Below are positions 50,863 through 63,752 of a DNA stretch of 64,000 nucleotides, piece by piece. Position numbers and translations under genes: made by a program. Position 1 is the stretch's first letter. Each line of letters starts with the position of its first letter. Location of the stretch: positions 203,374-267,373 of the forward strand of contig JAFRDE010000020.1 in assembly GCA_017403985.1 (NCBI GenBank), in the 5' to 3' direction. This DNA comes from Ruminococcus sp. (lineage in GTDB: Bacteria; Bacillota; Clostridia; Oscillospirales; Acutalibacteraceae). The notes beneath the pieces are model-generated. The model did not search any database, was not told where the DNA came from, and saw only the letters and a program-made list of their open reading frames with translations.

Positions 50863-52083
50863 TCACTGCTGAATCAGCATCGCTTCCTGCTCCAGCTTCA
50901 CGCGATGCTCCAGCATATAGGTCAGGCAGTCGCGGCAGTCTGCAAGCAGATCCCGCTCGCTCAATCCGCGCAGGCGTTCGGCATAATCATTCTCGAACGG
51001 CCGGGTATAATCGCTGTAACGGATCAGCTCATCCCTGTTCATACGATAAGGCTCTGCACACGACAGTATCTCTCGCCGCAGACGCAGGAGCATACTGAAC
51101 CCGCCGAAATCAATATCTCCCCAATGATACCATATACACCCTTTCGGCATCACTTCTGCAAGTTTTTCAAACAACGTTTTCTTTGCGGGGCTGTACTGAC
51201 CGCCGTGATATACGACCAGCTCATTCTCTCCTGCCTGATACGCGAAAAAGTTGGCGCGATTTTCAATAGTGATGATCCGCACAAGGTCAGCGGGCAGCTC
51301 GATCTTCGCTGTATCCGCTTCGTCGGAATAAAAGCAAAAGCCTTTTTCAAAAGACCGCATGCTATTCCCGTTCACCGTAATATCGCCGCGCAGTTCAAGC
51401 GGCTCGGGATACCGTGAAATGCCGATAAACCGCAGCAGCTCCGCATCCGTCATATCCCCGATATATTTCCGCAGGATAGACAGAAGCGTTGATTTCAGAT
51501 GGTTTTCGAAATACTTGGAATCGCCGAAGCACTGTTCCGAAAACACGCGCTCGGTAACAGACACGAAGGAACCGCTGTCGATCATCCGCATCATGCGGTA
51601 CAGCGCCTTGCGCTCATCACTTGATTCAGGCAAGGTTTTGCACAGCCGCAGCTTATCCTTCAAATATGTCGTTGTATCTTCATAATACGCAACAATCCAT
51701 TCGGCAGATACCGCCTCACATTCACGCTCCAGCTCTTTAACGATCTTTGCAAGATAGTCTTTCACAGGGATCCTATCCAGATAGTGATAGGCTTCGTCGA
51801 CACGGTCCGTGTTCAGCCATACACAGCGCAGGATATGTTTTTCTTCGCCGCGCAGCCATTCATACGATACCAAGCCCAATCGTCCTGACTCTGTCACAGC
51901 TGTGTTGATATCCGTACGTTTACGATAATCCTCGATATCATAGGAGGGAAAATCGGATTTCTTGCCGCCCGACAGCGTCAACATCACACGGCGTTCGAGA
52001 ACGGTTCCGTTTTTATAAGCGCTTGTACGCTCATATTTATCGAGCAGAGCGGTGATCAGCGCCTTTTGCCAATACTCACTCAT
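50863..52083 (-). CDS. jetD: Wadjet nuclease subunit JetD
   Basis: 406 residues. The C-terminal Toprim-like nuclease domain shows IENRANF with the catalytic glutamate (about residue 280) and HWGDIDFGGF with D323 and D325. The N-terminal part matches the DUF3322/DUF2220 layout of JetD. In Wadjet, JetD cuts circular plasmid DNA after the SMC-like motor has extruded it. GGGGGAA precedes the ATG, which overlaps jetC by eight bases. All visible key residues are present. Confidence 0.9.
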   Translation of the reverse strand: MSEYWQKALITALLDKYERTSAYKNGTVLERRVMLTLSGGKKSDFPSYDIEDYRKRTDINTAVTESGRLGLVSYEWLRGEEKHILRCVWLNTDRVDEAYHYLDRIPVKDYLAKIVKELERECEAVSAEWIVAYYEDTTTYLKDKLRLCKTLPESSDERKALYRMMRMIDSGSFVSVTERVFSEQCFGDSKYFENHLKSTLLSILRKYIGDMTDAELLRFIGISRYPEPLELRGDITVNGNSMRSFEKGFCFYSDEADTAKIELPADLVRIITIENRANFFAYQAGENELVVYHGGQYSPAKKTLFEKLAEVMPKGCIWYHWGDIDFGGFSMLLRLRREILSCAEPYRMNRDELIRYSDYTRPFENDYAERLRGLSERDLLADCRDCLTYMLEHRVKLEQEAMLIQQ

Positions 52084-55000
52084 TCAGCAGTTCCCCCATT
52101 CCTTCTTTATCGAAACAGGTCACCTGAGAATGTCGTCCGCTTCGCAGCACCAGTATCGTCCTGTCGACCAGCGGAGCGATATCTCCCGCCTTCTCGGTAG
52201 GCGTCGACAGGATCACCTGAAAGCCGATCTTCCGCAGCAGTATAATACTCTTTTCAATGCGGTCTCCGTCCATCTTTGAGAACGCTTCATCGAAGATGAT
52301 CAGTCTCGGGGTTTTGGTGCTTTGATCCCTGCCTTTGCCGATATGATAAAGCTGAGCAAACGACGCCAGCACCGCGATATAAAACGGCGTTTGGGTTTCG
52401 CCGCCCGACTTCTTATCGATCGTACGGGACAGCCGCTGGACCTCTCCGTCTTTGTTTTTGACCTCAATATCAAAATCGAGATAGGTGCGGTAATCGGTAA
52501 AGAGACGGACTCTCTTTTCGTAATCGCTTTGACTGAGAGCGGTGTTCCCCTCCCCTGTCATGATCGAAAACAGTTCGTTGATCTCCTCGCGATACTTCTC
52601 GTTGAACTGGTTGGCCATCAAGGCATATCCCAGCATCAGCATGTCGTCGGTGATCATCTTATAGAATCGTTCATAATCCTTTTTAGGCTCCACACGGAAG
52701 CTGTATGTATCATCGCCGAAGGATGCCGAAGAGATCGCCAGATTCAGCTCCTTGATCCGCAGCTTTACGGAGCGGATATTTTCGCTGAGCTTACTGAGGA
52801 AATCCTCCTGAAACTCTTCCATCGCCTTTTGCTTGGTATCCTCGATACGGGACAGATAATCAGGCAAGGTGTTTTCGCTGATCGTTTGCAGCGCTTCGTT
52901 GTATTCGCTGTTATCCTCCTCCTTGACGTCATAACCTGTTTTAAAGGCATCGTTAAACTTTGTTCTTTGCGTGACAAGAGATTCGCGGAACTTCGCGATC
53001 GCATTCTCAGCTTTTCTTTTTTCGCGCGGGAAAGCGTCCGCGATAAGCCCTGCGTTTTTGCGCTTACTGTATTCGTAGAGATAACGCGGCTCTCCTTTGT
53101 CGTTCACCCAATCAGGTTCAAACTCAGCGGAAAGCGATTCCGTGATTTCTGACAATTCGCTTTCGGTCTGCGGGATCTTTTCCTCCTTCAGATTTTTCAG
53201 TTGACCGCCTATCTCACCGATAGACCGCTGATACGCCTCGATCTGCGCAGAAGTTTCTTTCAGATCGCCCTCCTTATCCGCCAACTGCTGCCTGAGCATC
53301 AGCACATTGGTCATATCGAGCGACTCTTTCTCCGCGGTCAAAGCGTCAATCGCCTTCTCGTCCTCGCGGCTGTCGATCAGCGCCTTCGCGGTATCAGCAA
53401 AACGCTCCGCGTCGCCGATACTGAAACAGGAAAGTATTTTACAGCCTTCCGCACATTTTTTCAGTGTTGAATACCCCACCAGCAATTGCTTTCCATGCGC
53501 TGTTTCCCTTTCGATCTCCGACAGTCTGTTGATGATCGCGCTCTGACCGATCGCGGGGCGCTTCCACAAGGCGGGATTCATCGCGCGCACTACATAATTT
53601 TTGTACAGCAGACCTTCATCGGTAACGGAAACGGGATAGTCGCGGACGCGATCTGGATCGTCACACTTGCGCACTCTTCCGAGCACATAATTCAGGAAAG
53701 CGCGGACGTACGGATTCTCGGTCGTAAGCTCCTGCGCCAGACTGTTTTCCTCCGCCTTGGGGTTCCTTCGCATAATCTTTTCGGTATCGACGACTCCGGT
53801 ATCATACACTGCCCTGTCGCGCTTCATTCGATTCAAGACGCTGACAGCGATGCGTACATACCTCTCGGGCACGATCACATAGAACTTTTGCGTATTGAGA
53901 TAACCCTCAATCACGTTGCGCCAGCGGTCGCTTTTGATCTCAGCCGCTTCGGCGACGAGCGTCACCTGAGCCCGGTTCCCGGTTTTGGCGTGTATCTGCG
54001 AGATGATTGCCTGTTTCAGATCCAGCGCGTTTTGCGGAAACTGGAATCTGCCTTTTTCTAATTCTTCTTTCTCTGCTTTCAGGGCGGCGAGCTTTTCATC
54101 CGCCGCACGAACGGCGTCCGTCAGCTTTGAATGCAACACGGTTGCCGTTTCTTTCAGCGCGCCCATGGCATCGATGATCTGCCGGAATTCCTCTTCGGAA
54201 TAGGCGATGATCTTTTCGGGAGAAACCTCCTTGATCCTTTCAAACTGTTCGGAAACCTTTTCCAGCTCCGTAAACAGACTGTCCAGCTGGACGTCGATGA
54301 TCCCGTCCTCTGTCTCACAATGATCGAGGCTGTCTATCCGGCTGAGCACCTCGTTCCGCGCACTGAAAAACCGCGTCTGCGTTCTTTGGATCTGTGAAAG
54401 TGATCTGTCAAATTCCTGCTTGGCACGATCTATGCGGGCGGTTCTTTCCGTGATCTCGGCGGCTATCTCTTTTGATCTTATCGCTGTCTTATCCTCGCGC
54501 AGCTGCCATTTCAGATCATCGACCTGCTTCGACAAAATGCTTTGATTCTCTTTTTCAAAACTCAGATTCTCTTCGACATTACGCAGTGTTTCTTCTGCTG
54601 CGGACACTTCATTATGCAGAGTCAGCAATTTTTCTTCTCTTTTCTGTTGCTCAGCACGCTGTATCAGATAGGAATACAGCTTTTCGCTCTCTTTATTCTT
54701 TTCCAGCTCCGCGTAACAGTCGGCGATCGCCTGCAGAGCTGTCTTTTTTCGTTCCAGCTCCTGCGCCGTTCTTTCCAGATTCTTATAGCTGCGGATATTC
54801 TCCTGCATCGGACCGATATCGACCGGTTTTTCGGTGTCACACACAAACTCCGTAATGAATTTTTGTATATTGTTATCCGGATTGAAGGCGATCGCTTTCT
54901 TGAGCAGATCACGGAATTTCGATTGCAGCGCGCCGAGCATCGCGTAAATATCATTGCGGTAGCTGACACCGGATTCAAAGAAACGCGCATCCTTCACCGC

Positions 55001-55474
55001 GCCGTATTTAAAGAATTCTCTCAGCTTCGCTATCTCCATCGGTACGCCGTTCTCAATAAAGTGATCAGCGGGGATCTCCCCGTAATATCGAAAAAAGCGC
55101 GTCACGATGTCCGAGGGCGAATACACATCAAATACTTCGCCGAATACAAAACTGCGCTGTTTTTCATCGTCATAGAACTCAACCGCCGTATAACCGGTAA
55201 AGCGGCCTTCTCTCAGATAGTGAAAGCCTCCTTCGGCGTTGTCGCTGATCTCACCGCACAGATAGCTCGCCAGCGTTCGCGCGCTTTTGCCGCTGGCGGA
55301 TTTATTGAAATAGCGTCCCGCCGTATCTCCGAACAGCACCAGCTGCAGCGCGTCAATGATCGTCGACTTCCCCGACGCGTTCCCGCCCGTCATAAAGTTG
55401 AGCTGTTCAAACTCTATCATCTGATGTGAAAAGTAATGCCAATTAATCAACAGCAGTTTTTTGAGTGTTTTCAT
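52076..55474 (-). CDS. jetC: Wadjet SMC-like ATPase JetC
   Basis: 1132 residues of a MukB-like SMC protein. Walker A is GGNASGKST (residues 30-38). Long coiled coils flank a hinge region near the middle. The C-terminal signature is KKSGGETQTPF (about 1023) and Walker B is RLIIFDEAFSKMDGDR (about 1060). It forms the loop-extruding motor with JetA and JetB. GGAGGAAG precedes the ATG, which lies inside the end of jetB. It looks complete. Confidence 0.93.
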   Translation of the reverse strand: MKTLKKLLLINWHYFSHQMIEFEQLNFMTGGNASGKSTIIDALQLVLFGDTAGRYFNKSASGKSARTLASYLCGEISDNAEGGFHYLREGRFTGYTAVEFYDDEKQRSFVFGEVFDVYSPSDIVTRFFRYYGEIPADHFIENGVPMEIAKLREFFKYGAVKDARFFESGVSYRNDIYAMLGALQSKFRDLLKKAIAFNPDNNIQKFITEFVCDTEKPVDIGPMQENIRSYKNLERTAQELERKKTALQAIADCYAELEKNKESEKLYSYLIQRAEQQKREEKLLTLHNEVSAAEETLRNVEENLSFEKENQSILSKQVDDLKWQLREDKTAIRSKEIAAEITERTARIDRAKQEFDRSLSQIQRTQTRFFSARNEVLSRIDSLDHCETEDGIIDVQLDSLFTELEKVSEQFERIKEVSPEKIIAYSEEEFRQIIDAMGALKETATVLHSKLTDAVRAADEKLAALKAEKEELEKGRFQFPQNALDLKQAIISQIHAKTGNRAQVTLVAEAAEIKSDRWRNVIEGYLNTQKFYVIVPERYVRIAVSVLNRMKRDRAVYDTGVVDTEKIMRRNPKAEENSLAQELTTENPYVRAFLNYVLGRVRKCDDPDRVRDYPVSVTDEGLLYKNYVVRAMNPALWKRPAIGQSAIINRLSEIERETAHGKQLLVGYSTLKKCAEGCKILSCFSIGDAERFADTAKALIDSREDEKAIDALTAEKESLDMTNVLMLRQQLADKEGDLKETSAQIEAYQRSIGEIGGQLKNLKEEKIPQTESELSEITESLSAEFEPDWVNDKGEPRYLYEYSKRKNAGLIADAFPREKRKAENAIAKFRESLVTQRTKFNDAFKTGYDVKEEDNSEYNEALQTISENTLPDYLSRIEDTKQKAMEEFQEDFLSKLSENIRSVKLRIKELNLAISSASFGDDTYSFRVEPKKDYERFYKMITDDMLMLGYALMANQFNEKYREEINELFSIMTGEGNTALSQSDYEKRVRLFTDYRTYLDFDIEVKNKDGEVQRLSRTIDKKSGGETQTPFYIAVLASFAQLYHIGKGRDQSTKTPRLIIFDEAFSKMDGDRIEKSIILLRKIGFQVILSTPTEKAGDIAPLVDRTILVLRSGRHSQVTCFDKEGMGELLNE

Positions 55475-56093
55475 GATCCGCTTCCTCCGAAACCTTCATA
55501 TCCTCCAGTTCGCTTATCATTGCATTGATGCTCTGATTATCGATCACATAAAGGATCGACGGAAGTATCAGAATATCATTACCGTCCGCGCTCCACGGAG
55601 AGGGCTCCATCTTCTGAATGATATTAAAATGCACCAGCGTTCGCTGCGAGTCGATACGCTCCTTCTGCGTTGATTTTCCGCCTTTCAACAGACCGAGCGT
55701 TTTCATCTTCTCCACCACCGATGAGGTATCGGTTTTCACCACATGATAGCTGTTCTCGTTCTCACGATTTTCCTCGTAAATCAGACGGCACACATACAGA
55801 AACAGCGTAGTGAACCGATCCAGCCGAAAGCGGTTGTTGTCGTACTCGCTGATCAAAGAGACGATGCCGAAATCGTCGTCCTTTGACAGCCTCCACCCGA
55901 TGACCTCAAAATACTCCTGCAAGACCTCATACAGCCGCAGGACGGTATTATAGTCCGAGTTCGGCAGAGTCGTCTCTTCGCCCGTGTCATAGGTAAAGCG
56001 AACCATATATGTATGCGAAAGCAGATAGTTGCCCAGACGGCGAAATTCTCCCTGCTCATAAGAAGACAGCTTTTCATACTGCTCACTCCACAT
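55443..56093 (-). CDS. jetB: Wadjet kite-like subunit JetB
   Basis: About 216 residues of the DUF4194-like (MukE/kite) type, with winged-helix character (EFRRLGNYLLSHTYMVRFTYD, SLISEYDNNRFRLDRFTTLFLYVCRLIY). It bridges JetA and JetC. The start at MWSEQYEKL is chosen because AGGGGG lies eight bases before it. It overlaps jetA by 11 bases and jetC by 32. Confidence 0.87.
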   Translation of the reverse strand: MWSEQYEKLSSYEQGEFRRLGNYLLSHTYMVRFTYDTGEETTLPNSDYNTVLRLYEVLQEYFEVIGWRLSKDDDFGIVSLISEYDNNRFRLDRFTTLFLYVCRLIYEENRENENSYHVVKTDTSSVVEKMKTLGLLKGGKSTQKERIDSQRTLVHFNIIQKMEPSPWSADGNDILILPSILYVIDNQSINAMISELEDMKVSEEADHENTQKTAVD

Positions 56094-57489
56094 GCCGCTT
56101 TCCCCCTTTATACAAAACAAACTGCGGGATACGGTAATGCTCTTTCATGATAAAACCGTCTCCCAATTCCAGACGATATCCCCGCCTGCCCTTGAACGCG
56201 CTCACCACCGCGAGCAGCGTAAGGATATAATCCGTATCGTTTTCAACCGCTATTTCTCCGCTGTTCACCTGTTTCCGATCATCGGTAAATAACCCTTCCA
56301 TAAACTGCCTTACGCGCGCGTCGGAAAAGCCGTTTTTCATCTTATTCGATACCGTCGCCAGCACTTCTTCCTCGATCGAAGCGACATCGGGTAAAGAGAG
56401 CGGCGGCGTATTGACGCGGCGGCTTCTGATATTCTTATGCCATAACGAGCCTTTATCCATATAATCCTGCCTATTGACGCGGATATGCTCCGTCAGCAGT
56501 GCGGTGATCTCGCTTTCCCGCCCGCTGTCGGCTTCGGCATACGCCTTCATCAACTTGACCAGTTTGCCCTTGATGCTCTGGTCGGCGGACATCACATAGC
56601 GGATCTTGTCAACAGACTGCTTGGTCAGGCTGCTGTGTTTTAAATCAATCTCATCCATCAGCAGCCCGATCGAGCGATACGAATCGATGACCTTCTCGAT
56701 CGTGCACAAAATATCCTGACGCGCGTCCTCACTGCCCGGATAGCTCTTTGTCGCGAGCGCCTTTTCCGTCATCTGACACAGCAGTTCTTCATCAAAATGG
56801 ACTTCCGTCAGGATATTGATGATCGGACCGGAATACCGATACAAAGAATCCATTGTTTTGATCGGGTGATATACGCGATCGGCGTCCTTCTTATAGGCTT
56901 CAAAGTGGTTCTGCAGCAGCAGATTGACGTCGCTGTTTTCGCGGATGATCCTCAGATATCCGCGGATCCCGTGATAAAAGGTCCTCAGCTCATAATCCAG
57001 CTTTTCGGTATTGTTCTTAGCGACAAGCAGCGCCTCATACATTCTGTCCCTGCTGTCGGTATAGGCTTGATTCAACGCCGAGTAGGTAGAGAAAACCAGC
57101 GAATTATACTCTGCAGCGCCGTCACGCGTCAACTCGTCCAGCATGCGCATCACGATGATCGCGTACGGATACGGCGTGATGATCTGAGTAAAGGAGCCGT
57201 CCAGATATTCGCGCTCGACCCATCGTGTCTTTTCCAGCCGCTTCTCTACCAGCCGCGCCTTGCCCCGCAAAGAAGCATACTCCGCTTCTTCTGCCTCGTC
57301 GCCTTCTTCCATGATATACTGTCTGTCCTCCAGAAGAAGCTCCACTTCCGCTAAATACTCTTTGAGCCTGATATTGATCTGAGTCTGAAACATCTCATAA
57401 AGCTTTGTCAGCGCGTCGACATAAATCTCGCGGTTCGGCGATACCAGCACCGAGAAAAAATCCGAGGGAACCGTTTCAAAAACCTTCAT
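56083..57489 (-). CDS. jetA: Wadjet kleisin-like subunit JetA
   Basis: 468 residues, mostly helical. The start MKVFETVPSDFFSVLVSPNREIYVDAL resembles the clostridial JetA family rather than the DUF3375 JetA of type I systems, so I expect a type II or III Wadjet. It acts as the kleisin (MukF-like) subunit holding the two motor heads. It is the first gene of the jetABCD operon, with GGGGGATGGG before the ATG. The promoter is not clear; TATGAT near 57520 is a weak candidate. Confidence 0.83.
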   Translation of the reverse strand: MKVFETVPSDFFSVLVSPNREIYVDALTKLYEMFQTQINIRLKEYLAEVELLLEDRQYIMEEGDEAEEAEYASLRGKARLVEKRLEKTRWVEREYLDGSFTQIITPYPYAIIVMRMLDELTRDGAAEYNSLVFSTYSALNQAYTDSRDRMYEALLVAKNNTEKLDYELRTFYHGIRGYLRIIRENSDVNLLLQNHFEAYKKDADRVYHPIKTMDSLYRYSGPIINILTEVHFDEELLCQMTEKALATKSYPGSEDARQDILCTIEKVIDSYRSIGLLMDEIDLKHSSLTKQSVDKIRYVMSADQSIKGKLVKLMKAYAEADSGRESEITALLTEHIRVNRQDYMDKGSLWHKNIRSRRVNTPPLSLPDVASIEEEVLATVSNKMKNGFSDARVRQFMEGLFTDDRKQVNSGEIAVENDTDYILTLLAVVSAFKGRRGYRLELGDGFIMKEHYRIPQFVLYKGGKRHVE

Positions 57490-57634: not shown

Positions 57635-58843
57635 TTAGCTATTATAACGTTTATCTTTTACAAATTCTTTCATCACATTGCAAAATTCTTTTTTCTCATC
57701 TTCTGACGGATTTCCAGTATCAGGATTCGTACTTTCATGTACTCCCTTTTGATAGTATTCATTGTTCTCACTCCAAATAGTGAGAAATTTTTCAAGAAAC
57801 ATAGCGATAATCTGTGCGCTGTACATCATGATATTGGCTACATTCCAATCGTAAATATCACTTCCCAGTTTACGTTTCAGCTTTTCGCTGAATAACGAAT
57901 CACATGCTAAATATCCGTACAGCTTTCTCTCTCCGTTAACACAAGAATAAATCGAACAGGTTACACCTGAATTATAATACTCATAATATGTAGTGTTTTC
58001 ATTTTGATATGAACCCTGTTCCATATACTTCTTGTCCATAAAATTGAAAATAAAATAATCCTTTTCGATGCTACTCACGAAATCCGAATTCTTATTAACA
58101 TGAAACACCCGTTCCCATGTTTCTGTCCTCTTTCTGCTGTTATAGGTTCTGAAATCTCTGAATGCCGTATACAGTTCTAAGTCATTATTTTTAATATTTT
58201 TATATAGAACAGGCTTTGTCAATTGTTTTACAGTGATAGAAACGCCGTCGTTGCAGCCCTTGCTTTCCAAATATTCTTCAATGCTGCTCCTAAGAATATT
58301 TGTCATATTCCCCATAAAAATATTGTATTCTTCAATGAGTGTATTACATAATCTTTCGCCTTCTTTATTCTTTAGTTTTTGTCTGAAATCATCAATGTGC
58401 GCTTTCTTTTCTTCCTCAACAGAATCAATAAACTTCGCATAATAATCGTTGATTTCTTTTATCTCTTCTTTATATGAGCCAATGATATGATCTATCTTAT
58501 CATTATGATCCTTATATGTCGTAATAATTGACTTATAGTTTTCATATATCTTTCGGTTAGCGTTTTTTCCTTTCTTTATTTCGAGTTTTAATTCATCCGT
58601 TTTGATTTGATTAGAGTGGTTCCTGAACATTGAAATAATACTGTAAATAATTGATATTACCAAAAACAGTTCTGCCCCAATGATAGTATACAGAACGATT
58701 TTTGAATTGATATCATCCGAACCGGCGTTCCGGCTTATATTCATCTGAATGATCGTTAACGTCAAACCAACCGTGTTTATTGAAAAAGAAAGTATTGAAA
58801 CGATTACCTTATACCATTTTTCAAAAAAGTTTCTGATAGTCAT
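57635..58843 (-). CDS. unrecognised two-TM coiled-coil protein with GAF-like domain
   Basis: 402 residues. Two membrane helices (about 15-36 and 51-75), then a charged coiled coil (about 78-165), then a C-terminal domain. There, YFIFNFMDKKYMEQGSYQN, YYEYYNSGVTCSIYS and LYGYLACDSLFS follow the pattern of GAF-like sensory domains. I do not recognise the family. It is AT-rich and is the second gene of a pair: its GGGAGGAAA site directly follows the stop of the other membrane gene, 12 bases upstream. Confidence 0.65.
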   Translation of the reverse strand: MTIRNFFEKWYKVIVSILSFSINTVGLTLTIIQMNISRNAGSDDINSKIVLYTIIGAELFLVISIIYSIISMFRNHSNQIKTDELKLEIKKGKNANRKIYENYKSIITTYKDHNDKIDHIIGSYKEEIKEINDYYAKFIDSVEEEKKAHIDDFRQKLKNKEGERLCNTLIEEYNIFMGNMTNILRSSIEEYLESKGCNDGVSITVKQLTKPVLYKNIKNNDLELYTAFRDFRTYNSRKRTETWERVFHVNKNSDFVSSIEKDYFIFNFMDKKYMEQGSYQNENTTYYEYYNSGVTCSIYSCVNGERKLYGYLACDSLFSEKLKRKLGSDIYDWNVANIMMYSAQIIAMFLEKFLTIWSENNEYYQKGVHESTNPDTGNPSEDEKKEFCNVMKEFVKDKRYNS

Positions 58844-58855
58844 ACTGTTTCCTCC

Positions 58856-60136
58856 CTATGAGAGTTTTTGTTTCAACTTTTTGCAAGAGTGTTTGATGAT
58901 TGCTTTCATCGCTGCCGGGATAATCACAAAATAAAGTAGTAACAATCCAAAAAGAGTGCTGCAAATGAGAATTATGATTCCGGTAATACCCAGTTTATTG
59001 ATGAAAAGCATCAACAAAGACAGCAAGACAGCCATCATTAATACCGCAAATCCCTTGATTGGCATTCTAAGGTGATGTCTGAGTAAAGGTAAATACAATA
59101 AATCCTTCTCAAAAAAATGATTGCTGTTATATCCACGATCCACACACACAGTCAGCAAACCTAACCCACGTATCTTTTTAAAATCCGTTTTCTTTTTATC
59201 AATTCTTTTATATGCGTTATATCGTTCCTCTGCATTGTCGTTCGTAAAGTTAATAAATATCTTCTTTACGTAATTACAGGTATAGTGATACCGCAGTAAC
59301 GTCGCTGTACTGATCAGACAAATCAACGTATTCAAAACCGCTACAATAATAATAGTTACCGGTATACCGGATAAAAAGGACAAATGGTAAAAATCTATGG
59401 TTTCGGATATGTATAAATCTGTTTTTTGATAAAACAGAATCAATATATTTACCAACATGCAGCCCAGAGCAATCATCCATTTTGCTCTTTCGTGTTTGAT
59501 TTGATATTTAGCCTCAAAGAACAACGTGCTTTTGATACAAAGATCTTGTCTCTCGTTTCCTTTGCTGTATGATTGAAACACATAGTTTTTATAAATACTA
59601 TGATCTTTTTTAAACTTCGTCGTATTCTCTTCCAATAAAAAGAGCTTTGCATAACCCCGAATAAAACTTGAAATCCCATCCTCGGGATTATAATCCAGTA
59701 TTTTGCCAATTGAATTATAAAATAGGATCGATCGGCTTATAAACAAAATTACATTTGCCAAAATACAAACTGCCAACAGCTTAATCAAATATCCTGATAT
59801 CAAGCTCAATAATATGAACACAAGCCAAAGCAACGAACATACGGTAATGAAAAAGCGGTTTATCTCATCGGTAATAGTATAATAAACATTATTGTGTTCA
59901 ATAAAACTATTTTTACGAAACAGTGTGCTTACTGTATTTCCTAATACACTCTTTTCTGCTATCAGTGCGTATGTTTTATGAAGAATAATCACAAATAATT
60001 CGATAAGCACTACTACCCGCGCCAACATTTCACTGTCGATCTCTCCGTAAAAGAAAAACACCACAGATAAGAATGAGAGTATGATAGCAACAAAACACAA
60101 TATACATATCAGTTTCGACAACAATCCTGAATTCAT
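58856..60136 (-). CDS. unrecognised polytopic membrane protein
   Basis: 426 residues with about eight membrane helices in pairs (roughly 10-60, 95-140, 215-285, 360-415). Soluble loops lie between them, including a basic helical stretch EERYNAYKRIDKKKTDFKKIRG before the last helix pair. No named domain is seen. AAAGGGG precedes the ATG. AT-rich and coupled to the GAF-like gene, it probably forms a membrane complex with it. Its place beside Wadjet makes a defence role possible but unproven. Confidence 0.6.
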   Translation of the reverse strand: MNSGLLSKLICILCFVAIILSFLSVVFFFYGEIDSEMLARVVVLIELFVIILHKTYALIAEKSVLGNTVSTLFRKNSFIEHNNVYYTITDEINRFFITVCSLLWLVFILLSLISGYLIKLLAVCILANVILFISRSILFYNSIGKILDYNPEDGISSFIRGYAKLFLLEENTTKFKKDHSIYKNYVFQSYSKGNERQDLCIKSTLFFEAKYQIKHERAKWMIALGCMLVNILILFYQKTDLYISETIDFYHLSFLSGIPVTIIIVAVLNTLICLISTATLLRYHYTCNYVKKIFINFTNDNAEERYNAYKRIDKKKTDFKKIRGLGLLTVCVDRGYNSNHFFEKDLLYLPLLRHHLRMPIKGFAVLMMAVLLSLLMLFINKLGITGIIILICSTLFGLLLLYFVIIPAAMKAIIKHSCKKLKQKLS

Positions 60137-60522: not shown

Positions 60523-61998
60523 TTATTGGGCAATTATCATCACATCATCCCGCCGGATCGTGTTTTTGAGCACTTCCTTACGATAGGACGAGATGATGAA
60601 ACGGTTCAAGCCGTCGAAGACGAATGCTACGGACTTGGTGAACGGCGTCTTTTGCTCATACTCCGTGATGATCAGACTGCCTTTTGTTTTTCGCAGGGTT
60701 TCAAACGTCGTCATGAAGCCGATGCCGGAGCCGCCGTCGTCGGCATGCGTAGTGATCTGTTCCCTGCCGAGCCTTGCGAGCGTATCAGGGGCAAAGTCCA
60801 CTCCGTTGTCGCGGACGGCGATCTCAAAGATACCGTCGTTCTTTTCAATGGTAACGAGGATCCTGCCGTCGGTGATACCCGCGGATTCCACGGCGATGAT
60901 CGCATCCTTGATATGGTCACAGAGCAACGTTTGCAGATCCGTTTGACTGATGATGTTGTTGACCAGATAGTACGGCTCTTCGCTCACCGTCAGATCAAAG
61001 CTGATACCGCGCGCGGCGGCTTTGACATACATCTCGCTCAGGGAGCCGTCGATCAGCGCGATCCCGGTCGACGGAAGTATCTTGTTTTGCTGCTGCTCCT
61101 TAGCGATCAGCTCGTTGCGCTCGCGGCACATCGTATGGATCTCTTCGATGATCTGCGCGCGCTGTTCGTCCGAATCGCAGTCGGCAAGCGTCTGTACGGA
61201 GCGGTCTAAGGATGATAAAAGATGATTGTCGCGATGGAGCTGTTTCGCCAGCGTTGACACTTCGGATTCCAGCCGCTCGATACGCTTGTCCTTATCCTCG
61301 ATCTCCTGCTTGGTATACTCATTCGCCCGATCCTGCAATTTGTTCTTGTAATAACGTTTTACAATACTTCTAATCCAGAGGATAAGACCTGTAAAAGCAA
61401 GCGGAAGAACAGCGAATAAAACTGTTCCCCAAATAATATCAACTGAGATTTGTTTCGTAATAAACAAACTAAAAGTAAAAATATAGCTTGATATTAACAT
61501 ACCTAATCCAGCATTTTGTTCGTTTTCAAAAAAGATAAAACAGTTTTTAAGCTTTTTATTCTTTGCCAACAATACACATACTAGTACTTGTAAGGTACAT
61601 ATTACTAATGTTGCAATTATCTTTTGGTTAGTTGCTCTTATTATATAAATAATAATACTAGATACAAAAATAGCTAAATACTGTAAGCAAATTGAAATTG
61701 CTATAGACACAATAGCAGTTGGAATTGCAAAACAAACATTCTTTATATCAAGAATAATAAACAAAACACATAAAGCAATAATAAATAGCACTTTAATATA
61801 TGTGTTAGCAACACCTCCAAGCAATTGACAAACACCCAACAAAACTATTACAACTAATAATAAGCATAGAGTTTTTAGTTTACTAATATTAATTTTACGA
61901 AGCTTAGTATAAAGGATAAATGCTCCAAGAAAAGTAGAAAACAAATATAATACTCTATCAATAAAATATAAGTAAGAATCAGAAGGATAATCAACCAT
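60523..61998 (-). CDS. AgrC-like sensor histidine kinase (GHKL)
   Basis: 491 residues. Six or seven membrane helices fill residues 1-215. A coiled coil (about 218-250), the phospho-acceptor region KQLHRDNHLLSSL (H255 or H259) and a GHKL ATPase domain follow, with IAVRDNGVDFAP and GGSGIGFMTTFETL. The N-box shows LCDHIKDAII, where an aspartate replaces the usual asparagine. This is the layout of peptide-sensing kinases such as AgrC. The DNA for the membrane part is very AT-rich and the kinase part is not, with a switch near codon 219. It is the likely receptor for the peptide encoded just upstream. Confidence 0.88.
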   Translation of the reverse strand: MVDYPSDSYLYFIDRVLYLFSTFLGAFILYTKLRKINISKLKTLCLLLVVIVLLGVCQLLGGVANTYIKVLFIIALCVLFIILDIKNVCFAIPTAIVSIAISICLQYLAIFVSSIIIYIIRATNQKIIATLVICTLQVLVCVLLAKNKKLKNCFIFFENEQNAGLGMLISSYIFTFSLFITKQISVDIIWGTVLFAVLPLAFTGLILWIRSIVKRYYKNKLQDRANEYTKQEIEDKDKRIERLESEVSTLAKQLHRDNHLLSSLDRSVQTLADCDSDEQRAQIIEEIHTMCRERNELIAKEQQQNKILPSTGIALIDGSLSEMYVKAAARGISFDLTVSEEPYYLVNNIISQTDLQTLLCDHIKDAIIAVESAGITDGRILVTIEKNDGIFEIAVRDNGVDFAPDTLARLGREQITTHADDGGSGIGFMTTFETLRKTKGSLIITEYEQKTPFTKSVAFVFDGLNRFIISSYRKEVLKNTIRRDDVMIIAQ

Positions 61999-62033
61999 AT
62001 CATTTACCTAAACTGTTCAAATATTTTATTATC

Positions 62034-62061
62034 ATTATAACATAAAAAAATAAAAGAGCAA
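62034..62061 (-). promoter_or_regulatory. candidate promoter of the histidine kinase gene
   Basis: TATAAT (62034-62039) and TTGCTC (62056-62061), 16 bases apart on the minus strand. The -35 lies inside the stem of the peptide terminator. This would let the kinase be made at a basal level independent of the peptide transcript. Confidence 0.45.
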
Positions 62062-62079
62062 CAGTTCGCTGCTCTTTTA
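62043..62079 (-). terminator. strong terminator after the 15-residue peptide gene
   Basis: A 12-bp stem (62051-62079, one wobble, loop of five) followed on the minus strand by seven Ts. It starts about 18 bases past the peptide stop codon. Confidence 0.88.
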
Positions 62080-62097
62080 TGTCTCATAAATAATCAA

Positions 62098-62145
62098 TTA
62101 ACCAGCATGTGTCAAAAGCCACCAGAAATATTCCCACCAGCTCAT
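62098..62145 (-). CDS. 15-residue tryptophan-rich peptide, candidate signal
   Basis: Reads MSWWEYFWWLLTHAG then TAA. The ribosome site AAAGGAGGGG, six bases before the ATG, is one of the best in the window. Two Trp-Trp pairs five residues apart, four other large hydrophobic residues and one acidic residue make it amphipathic or membrane-active. It lies between a response-regulator gene and an AgrC-like kinase gene in the same direction, with its own -10 box and terminator. No AgrB-like processing enzyme is in the window. Best guess: an exported peptide signal sensed by the kinase. A type I toxin or leader peptide is the alternative. Confidence 0.7.
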   Translation of the reverse strand: MSWWEYFWWLLTHAG

Positions 62146-62156
62146 TATTTCCCCTC

Positions 62157-62184
62157 CTTTGCGTTAAAATTCTTTAACACAAAG
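62157..62184 (-). promoter_or_regulatory. 12-bp hairpin/palindrome touching the peptide ribosome site
   Basis: On the minus strand CTTTGTGTTAAA, loop GAAT, TTTAACGCAAAG: 12 pairs with one wobble. The 3' arm includes the first four bases of AAAGGAGGGG. It could mask the ribosome site in the mRNA or act as a DNA operator. Confidence 0.65.
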
Positions 62185-62214
62185 GTACATGAAAACGGGA
62201 AAATTTCTGAGTGA

Positions 62215-62257
62215 ATTATAGGGGATGTTTTTCTCAGTTATTGTCAGTTTTTATCGA
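62215..62257 (-). promoter_or_regulatory. peptide-gene promoter with tandem 0A-like boxes over the -35
   Basis: A perfect TATAAT (62215-62220) has no proper -35. The -35 position (about 62238-62243) is covered by the tandem repeat TTATTGTCAG TTTTTATCGA (62238-62257, plus strand). The same repeat occurs upstream of the response-regulator gene. This layout fits a promoter activated by a Spo0A-like protein. The expected transcript from here to the terminator is about 170 bases. Confidence 0.55.
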
Positions 62258-62337
62258 TCGGATTTGAATGGTGACAAATACCGCTAAGCACGACAGAAAC
62301 CGGTTGGATTCAACGCATTCCGCAAAGCGTAATACAG

Positions 62338-62373
62338 CAAAAAACAGAGAGCAGGCGAAAGCTTGCTCTCTGT
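62338..62373 (-). terminator. terminator after the response regulator gene
   Basis: A 10-bp perfect stem (62344-62353 with 62364-62373, extendable by inner pairs) followed on the minus strand by TTTTTT. It separates the regulator transcript from the peptide transcript. Confidence 0.87.
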
Positions 62374-62392
62374 TCGTATGCAGATGAATCAA

Positions 62393-63172
62393 TCACAACT
62401 CTCTTTTGATTTTGTCAACGTAATAAAAGACAAACTCAGCAGGCGAAGGAGCCCCGCGCTTGGGGTCGATCGGCGCCGTATAATGAAAAAGCAGGATCGC
62501 GGGATCGTTGTTCCATGTCGCTTCGATCGCGTGGCGCATCGCTTTTTCGATGCTGTCCGCGGTAACGGAGTATTTTTTCGCCAGCTCCGCTTTGGTGTTT
62601 TCCCTGCGCTTTTCGACGTTCATCTCGATAGCGTCTTTAAGATACCTTGCTCCCTTCAGGCTGGGCTTCATGCCGAGCTTTTCCATCTCCACGGAGATCT
62701 TTTTCTTCAGGCGCATCGCATACTCTTGCTTCGCCGCAATTTTTGCCAACTCAGCTTGGCGGCTTTTATCAATCGAATCAACCGACACCAGCGAATCGAT
62801 CGTATTCAATACTAACTCTACGCTATAGTCGGGCTTGGATTTTGTGATGATATAATCGCCGCCCTTTTCGTGAATGCGGTTATGTATGAGCGAGGAAATG
62901 AGATTGGTAACAACAATAATCAGCGGTTTCTTTCCGACACAGGATTCTCTGAGGCTATCTAAAAATGAAAAACCGTCTCCATTCCCTTGATTCAGCTCGA
63001 TATCCAGCACGACAGCGTCAGGTGTAAACTCCTTCACCATCTCCAAAGCGTCCGGCGCGTTATTGGTGGTGCCGATCAAATATAGATTAGCACGATCCGC
63101 GACCTGCAAACGATATTGATCGCAGATATACTCTTCATCCTCAACAACGATAAAAGTCTTTTTCATTTCCAT
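62393..63172 (-). CDS. response regulator with Spo0A-like DNA-binding domain
   Basis: 259 residues. The receiver domain has the acidic pair in VVEDEEY, the phosphorylation site D57 (AVVLDIEL), T89 (VVTNLIS) and K111 (ITKSKPD). The C-terminal 100 residues follow the Spo0A effector domain: EKLGMKPSLKGARYLKDAI, ELAKKYSVTADSIEKAMRHAIEATW (recognition helix) and SPAEFVFYYVDKIKREL. It should bind 0A-box-like DNA when phosphorylated by the adjacent kinase. It is not the sporulation Spo0A itself, to judge by divergence and context. AGGAGGG precedes the ATG. Confidence 0.88.
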   Translation of the reverse strand: MEMKKTFIVVEDEEYICDQYRLQVADRANLYLIGTTNNAPDALEMVKEFTPDAVVLDIELNQGNGDGFSFLDSLRESCVGKKPLIIVVTNLISSLIHNRIHEKGGDYIITKSKPDYSVELVLNTIDSLVSVDSIDKSRQAELAKIAAKQEYAMRLKKKISVEMEKLGMKPSLKGARYLKDAIEMNVEKRRENTKAELAKKYSVTADSIEKAMRHAIEATWNNDPAILLFHYTAPIDPKRGAPSPAEFVFYYVDKIKREL

Positions 63173-63237
63173 ATAATATCACCCTCCTGAAATTAGAAAG
63201 ATAATCCGGGAATCGATCGCTCAAAACCGCCAAAAAG

Positions 63238-63290
63238 GGACAAAAACGGACAAAAATCGCTGAATTGCTCTAAAAAAGGAAAAAAATCGC
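63238..63290. promoter_or_regulatory. three phased 0A-like boxes upstream of the response regulator
   Basis: GGACAAAAAC and GGACAAAAAT are tandem at 63238-63257. A third, GGAAAAAAATCGC at 63278-63290, matches GGACAAAAATCGC of the second copy in 12 of 13 bases. The repeats begin 10 and 30 bases apart, so on one face of the helix. In the other strand they read TTTTTGTCC, close to the TTGTC core of Spo0A boxes. They lie between divergent genes and may control both. Confidence 0.55.
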
Positions 63291-63332: not shown

Positions 63333-63374
63333 AAGTGTATGATAGGAAAACATTGGAAATACGGGGTGAGAGAA

Positions 63375-63752
63375 ATGACGTTTGGAGAATTTATCAAAGC
63401 GAAAAGAGAAGAAAACATGCTTTCGCAAAGGAGCTTCGCCTCCCTGCTCGGTATTTCTCCTGTCTATGCTTCTTACATTGAGTCCGGTAAGCGTCAACCG
63501 CCGAAGCACGATCTGCTGGTCAAGATCACCGAAGTGCTCCATCTGGATAAAAAAGATACCGATATGCTGTTGTTCCTTGCCGTACAGCAAAAATATCCTC
63601 AGGGAAACCTTGACGATATCCTCGGATATCTTTACAGCAACGACTATGCTAAGAACGCTCTGCGCATAGCCAAGGAATGTCAGATCGCGGATGACGATTG
63701 GACCTTTTTCACCAACTACATATATAACAAATATCTGATCAAATCCGATTGA
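63375..63752 (+). CDS. Xre-family helix-turn-helix regulator
   Basis: About 125 residues. TFGEFIKAKREENMLSQRSFASLLGISPVYASYIESGKRQPPKHDLLVKIT is a standard HTH_3 domain. The C-terminal half (LDKKDTDMLLFLAVQQK, NDYAKNALRIAKE) is helical and probably a dimerisation or peptide-binding part. GGGGTGAG precedes the MTFGEF methionine, 12 codons inside the longest frame. It is divergent from the response regulator and may take part in the same circuit. Confidence 0.85.
   Translation: MTFGEFIKAKREENMLSQRSFASLLGISPVYASYIESGKRQPPKHDLLVKITEVLHLDKKDTDMLLFLAVQQKYPQGNLDDILGYLYSNDYAKNALRIAKECQIADDDWTFFTNYIYNKYLIKSD

Follow-up and report, generated by a model that had tools for sequence, protein, structure and literature searches.

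Among the described systems that come closest to the locus treated here, agr and com have in common that the peptide and the sensor domain form a cassette whose parts diverge jointly, and the regulator ComA carries an output domain of the NarL type. A different kind of signal is the leaderless communication peptide (LCP) SIP, which is 8 residues long, enters the cell again after its release and binds RopB, a cytosolic regulator of the RRNPPA type; according to PMC10518010, it is secreted without the canonical export machineries. In a 64,000-nucleotide stretch of a Ruminococcus sp. genome (assembly GCA_017403985.1, contig JAFRDE010000020.1, positions 203,374 to 267,373 of the forward strand; hereafter the window), we found a response regulator with a Spo0A-type output domain, a 15-codon Trp-rich open reading frame (ORF) and a polytopic sensor kinase, lined up in this order on the minus strand. 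We propose, with a probability of roughly 0.6, that the ORF yields an unprocessed, leaderless peptide, which acts as the cognate ligand of the adjacent kinase in a self-inducing peptide-kinase-regulator circuit.

The regulator gene (62393..63172, minus strand; 259 aa) combines a receiver with a Spo0A_C output domain (Pfam PF00072, Response_reg, 1.9e-10; PF08769, Spo0A_C, 5.7e-17), and the gene of the sensor histidine kinase and candidate receptor (60523..61998, minus strand; 491 aa) has a HATPase_c match (8e-06) and a hypervariable part from residue 1 to about 206. Between them lies the peptide gene MSWWEYFWWLLTHAG (62098..62145, minus strand), identified by the ORF scan and by like peptides in relatives, with the Shine-Dalgarno (SD) sequence AAAGGAGGGG in front (62151..62160, minus strand) and its own Rho-independent terminator behind (62080-62050, minus strand; terminator scan). 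An initial annotation, made from the letters alone, had named the three genes in this order on one strand as well as the terminator; Pfam and the scans bear this out, and its interval of 60523 to 63172 covers all three genes. The very strong ribosome site that it noted also stands: a search of both strands of the 64-kb window for ORFs of 10-30 codons with at least three Trp gave six start codons (five ORFs), and a strong SD was seen (by eye) only at MSWWEYFWWLLTHAG. Its -10 box for the peptide gene held only in part, as the hexamer TATAAT is present (62220-62215, minus strand; a candidate whose position is not kept in all relatives) while a complete promoter is missing from the scan results at this place, and the stretch is no richer in promoter-like sites than its shuffles (9 vs 10.2).

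The proposal rests mainly on the comparison with relatives. When the regulator was searched in the genus (161 genomes), 34 genomes showed matches at E < 1e-39, at 35 places altogether; the rows listed after these have E values of 1.7e-21 and weaker. Together with a kinase scan of named genomes (57 loci) and seven further family matches (L124-L130 in our locus numbering; the weaker L131-L152 were not included), this led to a set of 53 non-redundant loci from Clostridia in which the regulator gene is followed by a kinase gene. Nearly all of them come from metagenome-assembled genomes (MAGs), and they belong to Ruminococcus, Lachnospiraceae, Oscillospiraceae, Defluviitaleaceae, Family XIII and other Clostridia; the best-matching kinases in named genomes belong to the Ruminococcus MAGs L067 (goat ileum) and L068 (RUG14402). 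Using strict criteria (an ORF of 9-22 codons on either strand that has an SD in front and contains two or more Trp, in a gap of at least 60 bp), 34 of the 47 regulator-kinase gaps were positive. Dinucleotide shuffles of the same 47 gaps gave a mean of 0.07 and at most 1 (100 rounds), and only 1 of 169 control gaps of at least 100 bp from the same loci was positive, although these comprise 48.6 kb vs 15.6 kb for the tested gaps. The ORF is therefore not a chance product. Relaxed criteria (a single Trp, an SD of lesser strength, or a premature kinase start call), chosen after inspection of the loci and without a matching control, added nine loci (L035, L038, L065, L118, L122, L059, L088, L099, L124) and raised the count to 43/48. 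The initial annotation had suggested looking for such ORFs in the gaps of relatives and had regarded loss of the ORF or its ribosome site there as speaking against a peptide; in fact, the ORF is mostly kept.

The predicted peptides have 11-21 residues, with Trp making up 18.7% of the positions after the start residue (40 peptides), and Pro occurs in 0/43. The helical moment exceeds the mean of the peptide's own shuffles in 38/43 cases (mean z 1.4). Examples are MSWWEYLLWFLNRNH, MSWWEWLWWLLNGGGR, MWDYILRVLKRWF, MANWWDWWWRTVAGGH and MGFWEWFWSLFSI, and the complete genome of Ruminococcus sp. FMBCY1 (NZ_CP074197.1) contributes the candidate MWDDIYEFLKQLLGK, which has one Trp and belongs to the relaxed set. 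Regulator, kinase and ORF share one strand in 22 loci, while in 21 the ORF is on the opposite one. Besides, L095 contains a tandem pair, MSFWEWLAYVLTGGGV and MSFWEWLAYLLAGGGV (L095:3672 and 3802), which differ at two residues and possibly stem from a recent duplication.

A second line of evidence is provided by closely related loci. Nine pairs among all locus pairs have regulators with at least 90% identity, and in eight of them the N-terminal part of the kinase (to about residue 206) is only 24-47% identical, the core 72-92% and the peptides 38-62%; the ninth pair, L058/L059, has kept both, with 94% identity in the N-terminal part and 100% in the peptide. The pairs cannot be counted as independent, as five of the eight divergent ones fall within L058, L059, L060 and L063, and the kinase of L036 is split into two ORFs, with the first piece alone entering the comparison. 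Sliding DNA identity profiles, drawn for eight pairs, demonstrate that in relatives with 80-99% identical regulators the identity falls over the peptide and the kinase membrane domain and recovers afterwards. In L049/L053 (regulators 99% identical), the DNA is 90-100% identical over the helix-turn-helix (HTH) gene, the regulator and the leader, except for an insertion of about 300 bp behind the L053 regulator; the drop starts at peptide codon 6 (MSWWE is kept), identity stays at 35-60% over the terminator and the N-terminal part of the kinase, and about 90% is reached again close to where the cytoplasmic helix starts. The profile of L035/L036 is similar, and the window locus compared with L033 and with L034 keeps the leader and shows the same drop behind it, with the stretch directly behind the regulator also being low. 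As the peptide of L058/L060 is antisense and the drop starts directly behind the regulator, the whole peptide gene of this pair lies within the dropped stretch. The drop is also present in L060/L063 and L043/L045 with a smaller contrast, and there is no comparable drop in L058/L059. The peptide-less pair L042/L047 (regulator 83%), a single pair, shows a weaker contrast of 59% in the N-terminal part and 69% in the core. Judged from these profiles, peptide and kinase membrane domain are a specificity cassette in the manner of agr. In the window's group, the first peptide residues (MSWWE-type) are nearly constant. Both the family and the cassette support by comparison the earlier suggestion that the Trp-rich peptide is the signal.

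Our data also allow insights into the control regions. Upstream of the regulator, 29/52 loci have a direct repeat with an exact 10-bp period, compared to 0.2 in shuffles and to 0-1 loci for other lags (7-9, 11-14), and these repeats are often located near a TATAAT. We consider them a candidate binding site of the regulator (63227..63256, minus strand, in the window). For the 33 loci with a clear enough repeat, the locus's own repeat was matched to the region upstream of the peptide, which resulted in a best match with p <= 0.05 in 9/33 and p <= 0.01 in 5/33; in the window, the candidate repeats in reverse orientation (62228..62257, plus strand; p = 0.005) stand just before the TATAAT. The best match is reverse and lies 82-114 bp before the peptide start codon in 26/33 loci, compared to 5.5 in shuffles (at most 13; 100 shuffles), with the interval having been set after inspection of the rows. 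A search of the own genome for the repeat pattern with up to two mismatches yielded 23 sites vs 3 for the reversed pattern: four at this locus, 15 in called ORFs (some of them short and doubtful) and four intergenic, one of which sits in a dispersed repeat. We claim no regulator target in this genome beyond the locus itself. The dispersed repeat (L158, L162, L163, L166) holds the string CCGATAAAGACTGATAACAACTCATTATCGG or near copies.

Between the TATAAT and the peptide gene, an inverted repeat, predicted to form a hairpin from leader alignment and folds, overlaps the SD with its 3' arm (62156..62185, minus strand). In 18 aligned leaders with this feature, 184/194 cells are paired and 17 are changed on both sides, compared to 34-65% paired when the arms are slid; these leaders were picked for sharing the arm, which excluded the sense loci L088, L090, L091, L095 and L110 and the antisense loci. 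The repeat may act as an mRNA hairpin, for which the G-U pairs (20/184 paired cells) count as well as the position of the direct repeats just before the TATAAT in the window, since the whole inverted repeat would then be transcribed. It may also act as a DNA operator: in many loci, the 5' arm begins with a possible extended -10, TGnTAnCTT, from which the transcript would start in the loop.

As for genes in the vicinity, the top clusters listed for the 53 loci, whose stretches differ in length, are the kinase (53), the regulator (53), an XRE-type protein of about 120 aa (19), a general ABC ATPase (9) and others with at most 5. In a directed count, 21 of the 50 loci whose upstream sequence was long enough have the XRE gene at a distance of up to 700 bp; its counterpart in the window is the divergent HTH regulator at 63339..63752 (plus strand; 137 aa; HTH Pfam matches only), which the initial annotation had not mentioned. 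There is no maturase or processing enzyme among the widely common neighbours, ComQ not having been searched by name.

Several observations weigh against our proposal. There is no peptide in 10/53 loci, namely in five of the 48 gaps even under relaxed criteria (L093, L106, L113, L115, L129) and in five loci where the gap is shorter than 60 bp and no peptide lies between the genes (L042, L047, L054, L086, L123). The N-terminal parts of the kinases are less alike than the cores in 1348/1378 pairs, so that their divergence alone is not diagnostic. The initial annotation had expected the peptide to co-vary with the membrane domain, and this is seen as the cassette in near-identical pairs. In the broad matrix test (35/40 peptide loci; L036, L059, L084, L090 and L102 dropped), the partial correlation with peptide distance is 0.16 for the membrane part (15/2000 permutations as high) and 0.23 for the core (8/2000), and the test therefore does not single out the membrane part. 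Concerning the repeats, 24 of the 33 own-repeat matches are above p 0.05, and the reverse orientation is found in 31/33 loci but also in 23.3 (at most 30) of the shuffles, which makes the inverted orientation largely a matter of composition; moreover, the peptide promoters pass the strict 10-bp repeat test in 4/43 loci only (shuffles 0.1). Finally, no transporter is widely common near the 53 loci (the ABC ATPase occurs in 9/53 stretches), and EcsB was not found in the own genome.

Part of this evidence would also suit a peptide that stays in the cell and, embedded in the membrane, modulates its own kinase from the inside, in the way of small membrane proteins such as MgrB and SafA. No leader is present and no exporter was found, the composition is amphipathic and Trp-rich (18.7% Trp in 40 peptides), and a pair-specific cassette suits any cognate contact. 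Nevertheless, we regard this as unlikely, since the repeated replacement of the cassette in near-identical relatives would rather be the pattern of a social signal, while an internal partner has less reason to diversify. It is improbable that the peptide is an effector, i.e. a leaderless antimicrobial or type I toxin-like product that kinase and regulator merely control or sense. Nisin is both product and inducer, and type I toxin mRNAs are tiny transcripts with a terminator and a hairpin over the SD, which is what the short hydrophobic peptide with its tiny predicted transcript, own terminator and hairpin over the SD resembles. However, no immunity or antitoxin gene is widely common, as the top extra neighbours are the HTH protein (19) and the general ABC ATPase (9), the peptide varies with the kinase membrane domain in near-identical pairs, and 11-21 residues are very short. 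That the ORF is a leader peptide and its translation governs attenuation of the kinase gene behind it can be rejected with little hesitation, for although a terminator stands between the Trp-rich ORF and the kinase gene, the ORF is antisense to regulator and kinase in 21/43 loci, which contradicts attenuation for half of the loci, the sequences between peptide and kinase in L049 and L053 are unrelated, and the kinase is no Trp gene. Hardly any credence is left for a fortuitous ORF within an element that works as RNA or operator only: this reading is favoured by the inverted repeat over the SD, which is kept with co-varying arms in the 18 chosen leaders, but SD, start, stop and the Trp-rich frame of 11-21 codons recur in both orientations in 43/48 gaps and are almost absent from shuffles and control gaps under strict criteria.

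For the favoured circuit, in which the peptide is the ligand of its neighbouring kinase, the gene family, the cassette and the repeats are established by comparison; peptide translation, export, extracellular sensing, phosphotransfer, target binding by the regulator and activation we infer as follows. With the regulator present at a basal level, the tiny gene would give rise to a Trp-rich amphipathic peptide of 11-21 residues (here 15) without a leader, which would reach the membrane domain of the kinase either from outside after export or within the membrane. Recognition would be specific for each peptide-kinase pair and may lie with the variable part of the peptide, while the nearly constant N-terminus may be needed for export or for docking to the membrane. 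The kinase would then phosphorylate the Spo0A_C regulator, which would bind the 10-bp-spaced direct repeats in the stretch that separates its gene from the HTH gene and also, in inverted orientation, their counterparts upstream of the peptide gene. By turning on itself and the peptide gene, the regulator would close a positive loop.

In the regulator, the residues D12, D57, T89 and K111 are present and are invariant or nearly so in the family alignment. The genome encodes two Spo0A_C proteins, and the other one, presumably Spo0A itself, scores 157.8 bits vs 64.2 for this regulator, which on TIGR02875 reaches 109.6 bits and stays far below the curated cut-off of 200 for Spo0A orthologues. Its best-scoring solved relatives are Spo0A C-terminal domains, with the query alignment itself including one Spo0A row. 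The AlphaFold model of the kinase (pLDDT 80.7, pTM 0.46) has about six N-terminal helices of membrane length and a kinase core. The label AgrC-like, which the initial annotation gave to the kinase, was not confirmed by fold: the best 50 of 386 Foldseek matches of this model comprise histidine kinase cores as well as further entries that contain a kinase, with no entry bearing the name AgrC, and because the matches fall on kinase cores, kinship with AgrC is not established. The canonical N box motif is NxxxNA; the N box of the kinase (residues ~361-370) reads DHIKDA in the window's group and ENA in the antisense group.

A sister lineage has, in the gap between regulator and kinase, a conserved small RNA (sRNA)-like element in the place of the peptide gene, located at about L106:2404 (the same in L128), L113:3493, L115:2122 and L129:2421, and in L130 on the minus strand. 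It comprises a similar repeat upstream, a TGnTAT-type -10, a 5' hairpin (folded for L115 only), a strong terminator and a single-stranded TTTTTCATATCACCACC, which is the reverse complement of SD plus start codon. L106, L113 and L115 have two kinases in tandem. An Rfam search of four sRNA-bearing loci gave nothing at the gathering threshold, and the same applies to the window. Mobile elements were considered as well: 84 pattern matches on viral contigs included no relative of the kinase, 11 phage records have Spo0A-like proteins with 23-33% identity, and four plasmid records matched at 23-32% identity. The faecal phage contigs L176 (MT835504.1) and L177 (MT836727.1) carry Spo0A-like regulators of 28-30% identity with no related kinase in the stretch read.

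Further features of the window include a terminator-like hairpin behind the regulator gene (62344..62373, minus strand), which was read by eye and is absent from the program's terminator list because its loop exceeds the limit of that list. Downstream of the kinase, two proteins of 402 and 426 aa (57635-60136, minus strand) match no Pfam family at E 0.001, the second one having a membrane-bound look by eye. They are followed by a Wadjet-type defence locus (52076-57489, minus strand) with a JetA match (PF18982, 4e-91) and an adjoining DUF4194 protein and SbcC-like ATPase.

We see about an even chance that these loci represent a new class of quorum sensing in Clostridia, in which a membrane histidine kinase senses unprocessed leaderless Trp-rich peptides of 11-21 residues and signals to a dedicated Spo0A-type regulator, cassette replacement has created many private pherotypes, and the sister lineage uses this circuit to drive a small RNA instead. 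In agreement with the initial annotation, no such system is described among the matches listed for the open-access literature searched, with preprints and most subscription journals lying outside this search. If true, rumen and gut Clostridia would gain a signalling language of genetically simple peptides, and as no peptide modification is predicted, candidates can be bought and tested at once. Besides, the Spo0A output fold would have a function other than in sporulation, and gut bacteria could be engineered with orthogonal sensor pairs.

In comparison with known systems, the regulator shares receiver and Spo0A_C output domain with Spo0A, but sits with its own kinase, and the stronger Spo0A_C protein is encoded elsewhere in the same genome. 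The phenol-soluble modulins of staphylococci are likewise leaderless amphipathic peptides; these have 20 or more residues, are not linked to a kinase and are exported by a dedicated ABC transporter, in contrast to our loci, beside which no such dedicated transporter is widely common. With agr and comQXPA, the loci share a peptide gene that adjoins a polytopic kinase and a regulator, as well as the candidate self-induction. The initial annotation had already set the locus apart from agr, and rightly so: the output domain is Spo0A_C and not the LytTR of the agr regulator, there is no AgrD-like precursor, as the whole ORFs have 11-21 codons without leader or C-terminal tail, and AgrB (PF04647) had no match in the own genome, in a search whose control matched 1/14 known genomes, below the cut-off, so that its sensitivity is not demonstrated. 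Based on output domain and AgrB result, we reject membership in agr. From comQXPA, compared by regulator type only, the locus likewise differs in its Spo0A_C output domain. Another close system is the LCP SIP with RopB, for which an ultrasmall ORF also encodes the signal without secretion or cleavage sequences. The terms 'histidine kinase' and 'two-component' have 0 occurrences in the main text of PMC10518010, and 'Spo0A' has 0 in the main text of PMC8895600. No Rgg/RRNPPA-type receptor is found among the widely common neighbours of our loci, which are the kinase, the regulator and the HTH protein of about 120 aa (137 aa in the window), and the loci are thereby set apart from the LCP/RopB type. 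In contrast to the cytosolic regulator RopB, the partner here would be a membrane kinase, and the principle of leaderless peptide signals would, if our proposal is true, extend from cytosolic receptors to two-component kinases.

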